The notes below the pieces were generated by a model. It ran no database searches and was not told where the DNA came from. It was given only the letters and a program-made list of their open reading frames with translations. 64,000 bases of DNA from Cellulomonas sp. WB94 (GTDB lineage: Bacteria; Actinomycetota; Actinomycetes; Actinomycetales; Cellulomonadaceae): contig NZ_QEES01000002.1 of assembly GCF_003115775.1 (NCBI RefSeq), positions 992,001 through 1,056,000 on the forward strand, read 5' to 3'. The translations under genes were made by a program, and so were the position numbers. This document shows, one piece after another, positions 17,497 to 21,187 of the stretch (its first letter is position 1; each line of letters starts with the position of its first letter).

Positions 17497-18177
17497 ATGG
17501 CCGACACCTGCGTCGCGCGCGTCCCGGTCTTCGCGAGCCTCTCGCCGGACGACCAGCACCGGGTCGAGACCCTGGCGCGGCCGACCCACCTGCATGCGGG
17601 TGAGACGGCGTACTCCGCCGACGACGACGTGTCGCAGCTCATGGTCCTGCACACGGGCCGCCTCAAGATCTTCCGGCTCTCGGCCGACGGGTCCGAGCAG
17701 CTCGTCCGGGTGCTGCTGCCCGGCGAGTTCACCGGCGAGGCCTCGGTGTTCACGGGGCAGCGGCCCGACAGCTACGCCACCGCGCTGGACGAGAGCCGGC
17801 TCTGCGTGTTCCGCCATGACGATCTCAGGGCCTTGATCACCCAGCACCCCGACATCGGCCTGCGGATGCTGGCCGCGGTGAGCGAGCGGCTCTCCGACAC
17901 CGAGCGCCGACTCGGCTCACTGACCTCCCGCGGCGTCGAGGGCCGTCTGGCCGACTACCTCCTCGGCCTACCCAGCGCCTGGCGGGACGGCATCGCGACG
18001 GTGACCCTGCCGCTGGCCAAGAAGGACGTGGCCGCGCTGCTCGACACGACCCCCGAGAGCTTCAGCCGGGCGCTGAAGGGCCTCGCCGCCCAGGGGCTGA
18101 TCGTCGTCGGTGCGGGGCGGTCGGTGTCGATCACGCAGCCTGACCGGCTCCAGCGGCTGGTCGACGTGGTGGCGTGA
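17497..18177 (+). CDS. Crp/Fnr-family transcriptional regulator
   Basis: A 226-aa regulator: an N-terminal cyclic-nucleotide-binding-like beta roll with VLLPGEFTGEASVFTG, a long dimer helix, and a C-terminal winged HTH with LAKKDVAALLDTTPESFSRAL. The recognition helix carries E-S-F-S-R, the E-x-x-S-R pattern of FNR-type rather than CRP-type DNA readers. The cysteine set needed for an FNR iron-sulfur cluster is missing, and the cAMP-contact arginine pattern is not obvious, so the signal is unknown. It ends before an 18-bp direct repeat and a small hairpin. The nearest redox-type candidate target is the hydrogenase operon about 9.5 kb away. Confidence 0.85.
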   Translation: MADTCVARVPVFASLSPDDQHRVETLARPTHLHAGETAYSADDDVSQLMVLHTGRLKIFRLSADGSEQLVRVLLPGEFTGEASVFTGQRPDSYATALDESRLCVFRHDDLRALITQHPDIGLRMLAAVSERLSDTERRLGSLTSRGVEGRLADYLLGLPSAWRDGIATVTLPLAKKDVAALLDTTPESFSRALKGLAAQGLIVVGAGRSVSITQPDRLQRLVDVVA

Positions 18178-18250: not shown

Positions 18251-18475
18251 TCAGGACGTGAATCCGCACTCGCACAGCACGTTGAACTCCACCACCCGAT
18301 CACCCTCGTCGGGCCTGGCCCACGCCTCCGCCTGTGCTCGCGTGGCGAACGTGCGCGGCGCGAGCCGCCCGTCTGCCATCAGGACGCCCACCGCGACGGC
18401 CTCGCGCGGGTCGTCGACGTCCACGGGGCCGGTCGGGTCAGGGGCCCGTCCGTCCCGCACAGCCTCGGTGCTCAT
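18251..18475 (-). CDS. Small protein (74 aa) in the DUF6448/peptidase cluster
   Basis: A soluble acidic protein starting MSTEAVRDGRAPDPTGPVDV and ending VEFNVLCECGFTS. The Cys-x-Cys near the C-terminus is the only notable motif and could bind metal. Its ATG overlaps the stop of the upstream peptidase gene (ATGA), which fixes the start and shows coupling. No family was recognised. The context suggests an accessory role for the DUF6448-type protein; this is inference. Confidence 0.7.
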   Translation of the reverse strand: MSTEAVRDGRAPDPTGPVDVDDPREAVAVGVLMADGRLAPRTFATRAQAEAWARPDEGDRVVEFNVLCECGFTS

Positions 18476-18993
18476 GGTGCCGCCCTTCCGTTCGATGGTC
18501 TGGCCGGGATCGCGACTTCTACCGTGCGCCGCCCCGTCGGACGTGTCAAAGGGCCAGGAGCTCGTCGCCCAGGAGCGAGCCCCCAGACGCGCCTGCGCCC
18601 CCACAGCTTGCGCAGCACCACCGCGTCGACACTCTCGACCCCGACGAAAGGCTCGTCCCAGATGCGGGAGTCGTCCGAGACGTCCACGTTGTCGCCGGCC
18701 ATGAAGTAGCTCGACGCAGGGACGTGCCGGGTCTGGGTGAAGGCGCCCCGCACCCGGGAGCGTCCATCGACGGACTCCCCGTTGACGAACAGCCGTCCGG
18801 CCTCGAGCTCGACGAGGTCCCCCGGCAGGCCGACGACGCGCTTGACCATCCGCAGCCCGCCGCGGTGGAACACCACGACGTCACCCCGGCGCGCCCGCAC
18901 CCCCGCCCGGCCGACCCGCCGCGTGAGCAGCAGGTCGGACGCGCGGTAGGTAGGGGCCATCGATTCGCCGGCCACCCTGACGAGGCGGGTCAT
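18472..18993 (-). CDS. S26-family peptidase similar to NiSOD maturation protease (SodX)
   Basis: A 173-aa signal-peptidase-like protein. The catalytic serine is Ser11 in AGESMAPTY and the general-base lysine is Lys51 in RMVKRVVGLPGD; box E-like GDNVDVSDDSR follows. Unlike ordinary signal peptidase I there is no N-terminal membrane anchor, as in the SodX proteases that trim the leader of nickel superoxide dismutase. The C-terminal 40 residues are basic and of unclear role. It starts 10 bases after the DUF6448-type gene and overlaps the 74-aa gene. Cleavage of the neighbouring protein before its His-Cys hook is the natural hypothesis. Confidence 0.85.
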   Translation of the reverse strand: MTRLVRVAGESMAPTYRASDLLLTRRVGRAGVRARRGDVVVFHRGGLRMVKRVVGLPGDLVELEAGRLFVNGESVDGRSRVRGAFTQTRHVPASSYFMAGDNVDVSDDSRIWDEPFVGVESVDAVVLRKLWGRRRVWGLAPGRRAPGPLTRPTGRRTVEVAIPARPSNGRAAP

Positions 18994-19003
18994 GACCGTT
19001 GAC

Positions 19004-19603
19004 CTAGTGCGCGTGGCTGAGCTCGTGCCCGTGCTCGTGACCGTGCTCGTGGTGCTCGTGCTCCTCACCCTCGGCGTACGTGAAGAAGCTCACGTACGCG
19101 GCGAGGTAGCGCCGGCCGGCCGCGACGTCGTCGACATCGAAGTCCATGACGGCCAGCGCGGCCTGGAAGCGCTCGTGGAGCTCGGCACGGCGCTCCGCGG
19201 GAACCATCGGCAGCAGCGCAGCGTCCGAGCCGCGGGCGATGGCCTCGTCGGCGGCCTCGACGACCGGGTCGACCCGGGTACCGACGGGCTGGATGCCGGT
19301 GAAACCGACGCCCTCGCCCATCCGGTGGATCCGGACCAACGTCTCGAGGAAGAGTCGGTCGGCCAGCTCGGCGGCATCGGCTCCACGGCTGCGCACCTTC
19401 AGCGCCTTCTCGAAGACGTCGCGCAGCTCGGCCTCGCCGTCGGCGGGGATCCACTTCAGCGCATGGTTGATGTTGCCCGTCTCCAGCGCCCTCCGTCCGT
19501 CCTTGACGGCCGGGCCCTCGGCGGTGTCGCAGTGGGCGTGCACCGTGGACGGCTTCAGCGCGCCGAGGAGACCGGCGAGACCGGTGATGAGGGTGGTGAA
19601 CAT
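19004..19603 (-). CDS. DUF6448-type protein with NiSOD-like His-Cys hook and His-rich tail
   Basis: A 199-aa protein. A 23-residue hydrophobic leader without a basic start ends in VHA, followed by H24-C25-D26 in HCDTAEGPAVKDG. Nickel superoxide dismutase begins its mature chain HCDLPCG; here the second hook cysteine is replaced by Glu and the tyrosine is lost, so it is not a normal NiSOD. ALETGNINHALKWIP and the helical remainder fit the DUF6448 family as I recall it. The last 18 residues, HEHHEHGHEHGHELSHAH, hold nine histidines, typical of a nickel or zinc store. AAGGAG precedes the ATG. The gene is followed by a SodX-like peptidase. Function unknown; metal dependence is inferred. Confidence 0.75.
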   Translation of the reverse strand: MFTTLITGLAGLLGALKPSTVHAHCDTAEGPAVKDGRRALETGNINHALKWIPADGEAELRDVFEKALKVRSRGADAAELADRLFLETLVRIHRMGEGVGFTGIQPVGTRVDPVVEAADEAIARGSDAALLPMVPAERRAELHERFQAALAVMDFDVDDVAAGRRYLAAYVSFFTYAEGEEHEHHEHGHEHGHELSHAH

Positions 19604-19659: not shown

Positions 19660-19675
19660 CTTGACGACGGTCAAG
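19660..19675. promoter_or_regulatory. Dyad upstream of the DUF6448-type cluster
   Basis: CTTGAC-GACG-GTCAAG is a perfect 6-bp dyad with a 4-base centre, 57 bases before the ATG at 19603. A TAGCGT sequence nearer the gene could be the -10. No regulator gene adjoins it, so the ligand is unknown. Confidence 0.4.
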
Positions 19676-19712: not shown

Positions 19713-20786
19713 CTAACGCCCGGCGTCTGCCACGAACCGGGCGGCCGCGCCCGCTCGCGCTCCCCGGCCGGTGAGACCGAGCTTGGCGTACACGTTGGAC
19801 AGGTGCCGCTCGACGGTGCGCACGCTGAGGACGAGCGCGTCGGCGATCTCGTCATTCCCCTGGCCCCGTGCGACCAGCCCGAGGACCTCGCGCTCACGCG
19901 AGGTCAGACCCGCAAGACTGCGGGCCGCCGACGAGGCAGCGCCCTCCGGACCGCCCAGGAAGGCAGCGATCTCGTCGGTGAACGCCGTCCAGGCCGGCTC
20001 GTCCGCCAGCAGGATGTGGTTGTCGCTCTCGAGCGGGACGAACGAGGCCCCGGGGATGAGCGAGGCGAGGCGCCGGCCCTCCTCGAACGGCACCAGCCCG
20101 TCCCCCCGGGCGTGCAGGACGAGCGTCGGGACGTCGAGACCGGCCGCGAGGTCGCTGACGTCCAGCTCGGACCGGATCGCGCGCGCCCGCGCCGCCTGTT
20201 CCGGGGAGGAGGACACCTGCTGGAGCTCGTCGAACCACGCCATCTGCTCCTCGGAGCCGCCCGGCACGAAGAGCGTGGTGAACATCCGCCGGTACGCGGG
20301 GTTCCGACCACCCCAGCCCGCTCTCGTCAGGGCGACGAGCGCGGCTGCCTCCTCGCGCGCCTGCGGGCTCGGGTCGCGCCGCAGCCGCCCACGCCCGTAG
20401 GTCCCGTAGAGGACCACACGGCTCACCCGCTCGGGGTGGCGGGCCGCATACGCGATCGCCGTCGGACCGCCCTGCGACATCCCCAGGAGAGCGAAACGGT
20501 CGACGCCAGCTGCGTCGACAACCGCCTCGAGGTCACCCACCCAGCGCGCGAGGGAGAGCTCCGGGTCGCTCCGGTCCGAGAGCCCGCAGCCGCGCTCGTC
20601 GTAGCGCACCACGGTGCTGCGACCGCTCAGGAACTCCAGCCAGTGGCGCCACACCGGCGAGGTCCAGTCCCGCTCGAGATGGGTGAGCCAGTGGCCCGCC
20701 TTGACCACGGGGGCACCACGGCCGCCGACGGCGTACGCCAGCCCGGTGCCGTCCGCCGCCGTGCAGAACCGCAGCTCCTGCCGCAT
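19713..20786 (-). CDS. Alpha/beta hydrolase fused to a LuxR-type HTH
   Basis: A 357-aa two-domain protein. Residues 1 to about 270 form an alpha/beta hydrolase with a complete triad: nucleophile Ser in LLGMSQGG, acid in HARGDGLVP and His in SDNHIL. The last 65 residues are a LuxR-type HTH (LTSREREVLGLVARGQGNDE, then RTVERHLSNVYAKL). Such fusions are known in actinobacteria, where the hydrolase probably serves as ligand sensor. The start MRQELRFCTAADG at 20786 is chosen because an upstream extension would run through the intergenic region. It is divergent from the tautomerase gene. Confidence 0.88.
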   Translation of the reverse strand: MRQELRFCTAADGTGLAYAVGGRGAPVVKAGHWLTHLERDWTSPVWRHWLEFLSGRSTVVRYDERGCGLSDRSDPELSLARWVGDLEAVVDAAGVDRFALLGMSQGGPTAIAYAARHPERVSRVVLYGTYGRGRLRRDPSPQAREEAAALVALTRAGWGGRNPAYRRMFTTLFVPGGSEEQMAWFDELQQVSSSPEQAARARAIRSELDVSDLAAGLDVPTLVLHARGDGLVPFEEGRRLASLIPGASFVPLESDNHILLADEPAWTAFTDEIAAFLGGPEGAASSAARSLAGLTSREREVLGLVARGQGNDEIADALVLSVRTVERHLSNVYAKLGLTGRGARAGAAARFVADAGR

Positions 20787-20910
20787 GCCTCTGGACTGTA
20801 CAAGCGCGGTCGGCGGGCAGCACCTGCGTGCCGGCCGACACGGTCGGCAGCGGAGAGCCCAGGAGATGGGTGCCGGCTCGGACGCGGCGCCCGGCCCCGA
20901 GCCCCTAGCG

Positions 20911-20944
20911 TCGTGCTGGTCGGCCGGCCGGCCGACCAGCACGA
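20911..20944. promoter_or_regulatory. Perfect 34-bp palindrome in the tautomerase leader
   Basis: Bases 20911-20927 are exactly complementary to 20928-20944, with no spacer. Half-site: TCGTGCTGGTCGGCCGG. The ribosome-binding AAAGGA starts at its right edge and the ATG lies 12 bases beyond it. It could act as a DNA operator or as an RNA stem masking the ribosome-binding site. Confidence 0.85.
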
Positions 20945-20956
20945 AAGGACAACGCG

Positions 20957-21187
20957 ATGCCACTCATCAACGTGAAGATCATCGAGGGCGTGTTCGACGC
21001 GGACCAGAAGCGTCAGATCGTCGAGCGGCTGACCGACGCGATGGTCGGGATCGAGGGCGAGAACATGCGGCCCGTCACCTGGTGCGTCGTCGAGGAGGTG
21101 CGCAGCGGCGACTGGGGCATCGGCGGGAAGCCCCTGACGACGCAGGACGTCAGAGAGCTCGCCGCCGGCGTGCCCGCCACGGTCTGA
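20957..21187 (+). CDS. 4-oxalocrotonate tautomerase-family protein
   Basis: A 76-aa protein of the tautomerase superfamily: it starts M-PLINVKIIEGVF, so removal of Met exposes the catalytic Pro1, and DQKRQIVERLTDAMV is the conserved first helix. Length is near that of the short family. It stands behind the 34-bp palindrome and is convergent with the dehydrogenase gene. No pathway partner is adjacent, so the substrate is unknown. Confidence 0.88.
   Translation: MPLINVKIIEGVFDADQKRQIVERLTDAMVGIEGENMRPVTWCVVEEVRSGDWGIGGKPLTTQDVRELAAGVPATV

Follow-up and report, generated by a model that had tools for sequence, protein, structure and literature searches.

What is a protein that would begin, once freed of a short leader, with His-Cys-Asp doing beside a peptidase gene of its own? 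The question is raised by a locus of Cellulomonas sp. WB94 lying within a stretch of 64,000 nucleotides that was analyzed as a whole (the window), where the minus strand encodes, in this order, a protein of the DUF6448 family, an S26 peptidase and a protein of 74 amino acids. Translation confirmed the features from which an initial annotation of this DNA had started, namely a leader ending in VHA, the HCDTAEGPAV that follows it and nine histidines among the last 18 residues, and translation and Pfam together confirmed the anchorless S26 peptidase with Ser11 and Lys51 directly downstream. By Pfam, the first protein belongs to DUF6448 (PF20046; 181.1 bits versus a cut-off of 27) and the second to Peptidase_S26 (PF10502; 87.4 bits versus 22.9); no literature on DUF6448 was found among open-licence PMC papers. 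We propose, with a probability of about one half, that the DUF6448 protein is a leader-processed metalloprotein with an N-terminal hook, part of a redox (low-oxygen or nitric oxide, NO) response and matured here by its own cytosolic peptidase, in the manner of the nickel superoxide dismutase (NiSOD) SodN and its peptidase SodX, homology with which is not shown.

A scan of genome contigs retrieved 14 DUF6448 relatives, of which 12 are actinobacterial (loci L001-L012, with titles including Actinotalea, Cryobacterium, Demequina, Humibacillus, Cellulomonas and Propionibacteriaceae) and the others come from Ignavibacterium and Bacteroidetes. Co-occurrence of DUF6448 with an S26 peptidase was looked for in these relatives and found in all 12 actinobacterial loci, where the peptidase gene lies directly 3' of the DUF6448 gene (peptidase identity 61-79%; L008 and L009 encode identical DUF6448 proteins), and the same scan showed no such peptidase immediately downstream in the Ignavibacterium and Bacteroidetes relatives. 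The same 12 loci carry a Crp/Fnr-family gene convergent with the pair (identity 57-82%; in L001 only the gene end is on the contig), which, together with an Fnr-type box upstream of DUF6448, adds parts that were absent from the initial account. The observed unit is confirmed to be more than chance, and we regard it as an evenly balanced proposition that DUF6448, a leader peptidase dedicated to it and the Crp/Fnr-type regulator form, together with the upstream box, a three-gene redox-response module.

The family occurs in Actinomycetota, Bacillota, Pseudomonadota and Bacteroidota-type genomes, being present in 8 of 296 genomes of the window's phylum (the window genome included) and in 24 of 296 genomes (once as a fragment) of the phylum to which a metagenome-assembled genome titled Bacteroidetes bacterium (L014) belongs. 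Relatives were also seen on two IMG/VR contigs, which a pattern search recovered again but a single-protein query did not, and in two short unannotated phage records. His-Cys-Asp is present in 56 of 57 family hits, the remaining hit being a fragment without its N-terminus. The invariant columns of a 49-row alignment are H24, C25, D26, G30, P31, H93, R94, E97, G98 and G103 (precursor numbering); in this alignment the window row stands for L015, and it omits the duplicates L008 (of L009) and L050 (of L014), the fragments L022, L023 and L053, and L037, L038 and L044, which have odd or fused C-termini. L022 and L023 are one broken copy in genome G293 that begins WPP-HCD and for which no in-frame start codon was found. 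His1, Cys2, Asp3 and the internal His70-Arg-x-x-Glu74 (mature numbering) are invariant candidate ligands. When counted over 52 of the 56 HCD rows (without L008, L022, L023 and L050), the motif directly follows the predicted leader in 48 rows; it lies three residues from the start in the other four, L021 probably being a fifth. In 50 of all 56 proteins, Cys2 is the single cysteine within the first 160 residues of the mature form. A tail with at least three histidines in its last 25 residues is seen in 10 of 11 window-clade relatives and in 29 of 40 others.

The mature window protein and a relative from Bacteroidetes were modeled with AlphaFold2. Both models are helical, with a mean predicted local distance difference test score of 90.6 and 91.9, respectively, and of 95 and 90 for residues 1-10; the His-rich tail is mostly modeled with low confidence. 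Residues 4 and 82 were assigned by DSSP as the sole bridge residues in both models, and since residue 82 is just behind H70-R-x-x-E74-G, the hook is placed against the segment that follows this motif; the models thus predict an ordered hook beside the HRxxEG loop. At a threshold of E <= 0.001 Foldseek matched nothing in the PDB (best 0.28), an absence that is no proof of a new fold, and the best rows given by a second aligner were unrelated helical pieces with Z up to 5.7.

The peptidase scores 92.1 bits against the NCBIfam model of signal peptidase I (TIGR02227, cut-off 47) and shares with LepB, in addition to both domain matches, the Ser/Lys dyad and the GDNxxxS[DE]DSR box, with Ser11, Lys51 and the box being present in 13 of 13 aligned peptidases, including that of the window. 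It differs from LepB in the lack of a transmembrane anchor (the highest mean hydrophobicity over 19 residues is 0.63-1.35 in the 13 peptidases, whereas the LepB of the window genome reaches 2.59 ahead of its domain) and in its phylogenetic position. In a tree of S26 sequences, the 12 distinct DUF6448-linked peptidases form one side of a branch with support 98/95, apart from the sodN-linked rows, 27 of 28 of which group elsewhere with two other rows while one (L059, a second hit) falls among LepB; the root was not inferred, and the tree makes no statement as to which clade is nearer LepB. Against the NiSOD maturation protease model TIGR02754 the window peptidase reaches 23.5 bits, below the cut-off of 63.25. 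The description of the peptidase as SodX-like is not supported: judged by sequence, the window-clade enzyme is an S26 clade of its own and not SodX.

Three kinds of N-terminal start are found in the family. Window-clade leaders comprise 19-24 residues with proline in the core in 12 of 12; DUF6448 proteins of Bacteroidota-type genomes, Bacillota and Pseudomonadota have plain Sec-type leaders; and in other actinobacteria HCD is immediately preceded by Met-Pro-Pro, Met-Ala-Pro or (GTG)-Pro-Pro in six of six copies read (L017-L021 and L159, the broken G293 copy excluded). L021 entered the leader count with a long leader, a GTG three residues before HCD being likelier, and one genome, G298, carries two of these forms (L002 and L159). 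Leader type and peptidase type go together across DUF6448 loci: on Tetragenococcus and Aerococcus plasmids, the S26 genes beside DUF6448 are anchored and of the lepB type, with Sec-type leaders on the DUF6448 proteins, and no S26 gene was found in the flanks of any other DUF6448 locus tested (mostly 1.5 kb, with a second check of 4-6 kb for most) or in any of 20 control regions, which were taken at arbitrary offsets from 20 of the same genomes. That leader type tracks peptidase type fits a putative cytosolic maturation in the window clade. The initial proposal that the protein has a dedicated peptidase to uncover an N-terminal His-Cys is supported, as far as sequence can do so, by the strict neighborhood in 12 of 12 loci, the invariant HCD, the predicted leaders that stop exactly before it, the Pro and mostly Lys/Arg in the core of the window-clade leaders, and the anchorless peptidase.

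Crp/Fnr domains were found in the window regulator, whose Cys5 and Cys103 recur in each of the 11 window-clade proteins aligned and in the Tetragenococcus regulator; its 10 aligned orthologues have two to four cysteines, and these two are the only ones common to all 11 proteins. The four cysteines that hold the [4Fe-4S] cluster of FNR are not present in the window regulator. The FLP of L. casei has a Cys5/Cys102 pair. With Crp/Fnr domains and no cysteines beyond residues 5 and 103, the window regulator resembles the FLP regulators of Gram-positive bacteria rather than a four-cysteine FNR, its oxygen sensing and box binding being putative. Proteins of this FNR-like kind are described as often having two cysteines, with a debated mechanism (PMC5039431).

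All 12 window-clade upstream regions examined, with the duplicate L008 excluded, contain the palindrome TTGAY-N4-GTCAAGG, centered 61-66 bp ahead of the start codon. This range counts L007 and L011 with corrected starts, those first assigned to them lying 10 residues too far upstream and giving a box distance of 33 instead of ~63. TTGAYNNNNRTCAAGG occurs a single time in the window genome, upstream of DUF6448, and with the trailing GG the only TTGAYN4RTCAAGG is found there. Outside the window clade, TTGAYN4RTCAA is present in 4 of 42 DUF6448 upstream regions, a number never reached in 500 Markov resamplings (mean 0.07), though the box pattern was chosen after viewing the window clade. We infer from these sequences that the regulator acts on the upstream box.

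The genes surrounding DUF6448 were counted in 53 loci (L127-L159 and 20 earlier ones, excluding L001, L008, the second copy in G583 (L056) and the fragments in G433 and G293), with 12 query proteins and flanks of ~5 kb, weak NirK-like (L137) and NosZ-like (L136) matches being left uncounted. Nine of 26 Bacteroidota-type loci have a strong match to an enzyme of NO turnover or denitrification (the quinol-type NO reductase qNorB in five, the copper nitrite reductase NirK in two and the nitrous oxide reductase NosZ in two), 13 of 26 have a Crp/Fnr regulator nearby, and four of 26 have a hemerythrin, near in two and fused in two; excluding the loci that supplied the queries leaves 12 with Crp/Fnr, six with NO enzymes and two with hemerythrin, and the 20 control regions contain none of the 12 query proteins. 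The two fusions (L038 and L044, Bacteroidota-type) join DUF6448 and a following hemerythrin-like part in one frame of 353 amino acids that matches two of the hemerythrin neighbors, and may represent a natural link of DUF6448 to a di-iron binder of O2 or NO. In Sinorhizobium, DUF6448 follows a hemerythrin gene and lies near a Crp/Fnr regulator and universal stress proteins, and on plasmids of Citrobacter (L027) and Marinobacter (L028) it comes after genes for a two-component system and an AraC-type regulator instead, none of the annotated genes in view there encoding an NO enzyme. No literature joining Fnr, hemerythrin, NO reductase and a hypothetical protein in Bacteroidetes was found among open-licence PMC papers.

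Taken together, the following mechanism is proposed, in which we infer cleavage, location, metal, regulation and activity from sequence. At low oxygen or in the presence of NO, the FLP-like regulator would act at the TTGAY-N4-RTCAA box, and DUF6448 and the peptidase would be made. The cytosolic Ser/Lys peptidase would then cut after the last alanine of the leader, making His1-Cys2-Asp3 the N-terminus, and the helical body would offer its invariant His70-Arg-x-x-Glu74-Gly loop, onto which the free N-terminus (amine, His1 imidazole and Cys2 thiolate) would pack to hold one redox metal, Cu, Ni or Fe, perhaps with Asp3 in the site too. The His-rich tail may help to load or buffer the metal, and the mature protein would scavenge or sense a small redox species, most likely NO.

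Several observations weigh against this proposal. The 12 relatives were picked by similarity to the window protein, and most of the family has no peptidase nearby, including the six actinobacterial copies with a Met/Val-(Pro/Ala)-Pro-HCD start, in which a free His1 needs some other trimming or may not exist. Both structure models drew on the same 16 sequences. The box is less distinctive when relaxed: without GG, TTGACNNNNGTCAA (TTGACN4GTCAA) has three sites in the genome versus one for the reversed pattern, and with one mismatch allowed there are two in the window, a number reached by 10 of 100 shuffles and thus not rarer than chance. Finally, the link to NO rests on one group, because qNorB, NirK and NosZ are near none of the 27 DUF6448 loci outside the Bacteroidota-type genomes (10 window-clade loci and L158 among them), nor was a NorB-type cytochrome domain found in the window genome.

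The strongest rival, which overlaps our proposal in that the latter leaves the metal open, is a copper carrier or a copper site of the histidine-brace kind, in which His1, through amine and imidazole, would bind Cu with His70 and/or Glu74 as in the bis-histidine brace proteins CopC and lytic polysaccharide monooxygenases (LPMO) or in YcnI and would serve the copper enzymes of denitrification. We consider it possible, at perhaps half the weight of the reading given above. Histidine-brace proteins have beta folds and are exported. Published descriptions have brace proteins holding the metal by an N-terminal His and an internal Glu or His (PMC8424229; PMC10952591), with His1 and one Glu binding Cu(II) in YcnI, a DUF1775 protein with a mono-histidine brace (PMC8424229), and the invariant His1, His70 and Glu74 of DUF6448 could take up such an arrangement. 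Copper is further suggested by the genes of NirK (two loci) and NosZ beside DUF6448, by heavy-metal P-type ATPases beside two other copies, by one neighbor whose best match is a TonB-dependent copper receptor model, albeit below cut-off (234.7 versus 472.45 bits), and by the His-rich tails. However, these brace descriptions name no Cys2 ligand, DUF6448 is all-helical in the models, Foldseek gave no PDB match at the threshold stated above, the window clade is predicted to be cytosolic, and no copper gene was recognized beside the window copy.

It is rather improbable that no metal is involved and that the N-terminal Cys2 acts as a switch for thiol redox chemistry or nitrosation, with its reactivity tuned by His, Asp and the HRxxEG loop. 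Such a switch would agree with an invariant and usually sole cysteine, and the regulator and the NO context of the Bacteroidota-type genomes fit thiol chemistry, but the invariant His1, Asp3, His70 and Glu74 and the His-rich tails look more like metal binding, and a histidine at the very N-terminus would be unneeded.

Nor do we favor, at a similarly low likelihood, the view of the leader as a weak but otherwise ordinary Sec signal peptide that the housekeeping LepB removes, with another substrate for the neighboring S26 peptidase. In its favor, a lax A-x-A-like rule is obeyed at the end of the leader (its last three residues) in 12 of 12 window-clade rows and 32 of 34 others, and relatives in other phyla have plain Sec-type leaders. 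Against it, 10 of 12 window-clade leaders have a charged core residue (Lys/Arg) versus 4 of 34 others (Fisher p 1.3e-5, a guide only, as the rows are related), and median hydrophobicity is 1.62 versus 2.70, with overlapping ranges; most leaders in other phyla have an uncharged core and are more hydrophobic than that of the window. The strict pairing with an anchorless peptidase likewise speaks against this view.

The comparison with NiSOD, to which the initial annotation had related the protein, requires separation of likeness from descent. NiSOD is described as having a cognate peptidase (PMC3919588) and His1, Cys2 and Cys6 as metal ligands (PMC5722923). DUF6448 shares with SodN/SodX a short leader of low hydrophobicity, the His-Cys-Asp start and an S26-family gene nearby, the last being present in 27 of 30 SodN loci, but it has an invariant internal HRxxEG and lacks Cys6, and its peptidase is a separate S26 clade. 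The hook HCxxPC, with both Cys2 and Cys6, is absent from DUF6448, where 52 of 52 rows lack Cys6, and Cys6 is invariant in 29 of 29 SodN rows, partly by construction, as these rows were found by an HCD[LVI]PCG pattern. Position 6 of DUF6448 is D in 28, E in 13, N in eight, G in two and K in one of the 52 rows. Because this position varies and is Gly in the two peptidase-bearing relatives L007 and L011, a Glu ligand in place of Cys6, as had been suggested, is not a family feature.

No support for homology to NiSOD came from Pfam, NCBIfam, a PDB sequence search, hhalign or fold comparison, which gave the first residues and helical matches at background level only. DUF6448 has no Pfam hit to Sod_Ni (PF09055) at E <= 1, and profile-profile comparison (hhalign) with 29 SodN sequences aligned at most the first five residues, with probabilities of 0.8% and 0.3%. 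In the fold comparison the NiSOD chains 3g50 (Z 4.3) and 1t6q (Z 4.2) match over model residues 88-160, off the hook and among unrelated bundles, so that structure prediction lends no support to a relation with the SodN bundle, a distant one being neither shown nor excluded at this background level. A SodN-type leader found no support either: the resemblance, apparent by eye when SodN leaders such as MFEAFLKPQRTVHA are set beside that of the window, is opposed by an ungapped 13-residue profile built from 30 SodN leaders, 29 of them distinct, which themselves score between -19.4 and 35.9 (median 21.4) when each is left out in turn. On this profile 12 window-clade leaders have a median of -9.3 and 34 other leaders one of -13.9. 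Shuffled window-clade leaders score -18.3 on average (sd 7.7, 99th percentile 0.65), and 1 of 12 real leaders exceeds that percentile; with its small pseudocount, and with one gap separating both patterns, the profile does not settle the matter in either direction.

A NiSOD-related nickel enzyme with Glu for Cys6, trimmed by SodX, is therefore largely refuted by the sequence tests and very unlikely, its points of contact (the same start, similar-looking leaders and S26 genes at SodN loci) being outweighed by the variable position 6, the lack of a profile or Pfam relation, the peptidase outside the SodX clade and leaders that the profile fails to class with those of SodN. Nor does any result point to a superoxide role: the window genome has no PF09055 match and no SodN but has an Fe/Mn SOD, and the Bacteroidota-type neighbors point to NO or low oxygen. 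The logic first guessed, a private peptidase that frees His-Cys, has held up well, while the relative and the chemistry of the sixth position were wrong, as probably was the substrate. As judged from sequence, DUF6448 looks less like a relative of NiSOD than like an independent reinvention of how that enzyme assembles its metal site.

The 74-amino-acid protein had been described as coupled to the pair. Its ATG does overlap the peptidase stop, and a Cys-x-Cys (CEC) does precede its four last residues, but its membership in the unit was rejected. It has no family by Pfam search, it is beside none of the 12 DUF6448 loci L001-L012 (tblastn), and although 48 of 121 genomes from the window's family, counting the window genome itself, carry relatives of it, nine that were fetched, the window excluded, have no DUF6448, S26 or regulator gene within ~1.5 kb. 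Because none of the 12 loci carries it and its fetched relatives are away from DUF6448, we regard it as a local neighbor outside the unit. Coordinates of all features are given in the table below.

Table. Features of the DUF6448 locus, with positions counted from the first nucleotide of the window.
Feature	Position	Strand	Basis
DUF6448 (PF20046) protein precursor, 199 aa	19004-19603	-	translation, Pfam
Leader, 23 aa, MFTTLITGLAGLLGALKPSTVHA, last residues VHA, Lys-Pro in core	19535-19603	-	translation, leader prediction
His-Cys-Asp hook, residues 1-3 of the mature protein given cleavage after VHA	19526-19534	-	invariant in aligned rows
His-Arg-x-x-Glu-Gly motif, precursor 93-98 = mature 70-75, proposed second half of metal site	19310-19327	-	conservation
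His-rich C-terminal tail, 9 His in 18 residues	19007-19060	-	translation
Anchorless S26 leader peptidase, 173 aa, Ser11/Lys51, proposed DUF6448 maturase	18472-18993	-	
Fnr-type palindrome TTGACCGTCGTCAA, center 64 bp before DUF6448 start	19661-19674	-	
Crp/Fnr-family regulator, convergent, Cys5 and Cys103 only, proposed redox regulator of the unit	17497-18177	+	
74-aa protein, overlaps peptidase stop, judged outside the conserved unit	18251-18475	-	
Alpha/beta hydrolase with LuxR-type DNA-binding domain, directly upstream of the unit	19713-20963	-	

Other genes adjoin DUF6448 elsewhere in the family. On the Citrobacter and Marinobacter plasmids, both typed as conjugative, these are ferric-reductase/PepSY and phosphonate genes, and among 5426 E. 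coli genomes, a single one has the Citrobacter DUF6448 gene, where it is plasmid-borne. Proteins of ~154 amino acids are encoded near DUF6448 in L140 (3534-3995), L132, L143 and L149, one with a sub-threshold COX1 match, and in three of these four loci the protein stands behind an ABM-like protein of ~100-114 amino acids.

To our knowledge, the pairing of NiSOD with its peptidase is usually regarded as a single case. If the proposal made here is true, a private cytosolic protease that frees an N-terminal metal hook would be a repeatable strategy, used for a second, apparently unrelated protein, and a testable function would be offered for a Pfam family of unknown function. More tentatively, and with a chance well below even, DUF6448 may represent a new class of metalloprotein in which a freed His-Cys-Asp N-terminus and an internal His-Arg-x-x-Glu act on NO or another small redox molecule, with the N-terminus freed by three routes: the Sec signal peptidase, a short Met-Pro-Pro start, or a dedicated cytosolic S26 peptidase that would have independently reinvented the SodX strategy. 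Part of the family would also be linked to nitric oxide and denitrification, where an uncharacterized conserved metalloprotein would be of direct interest.

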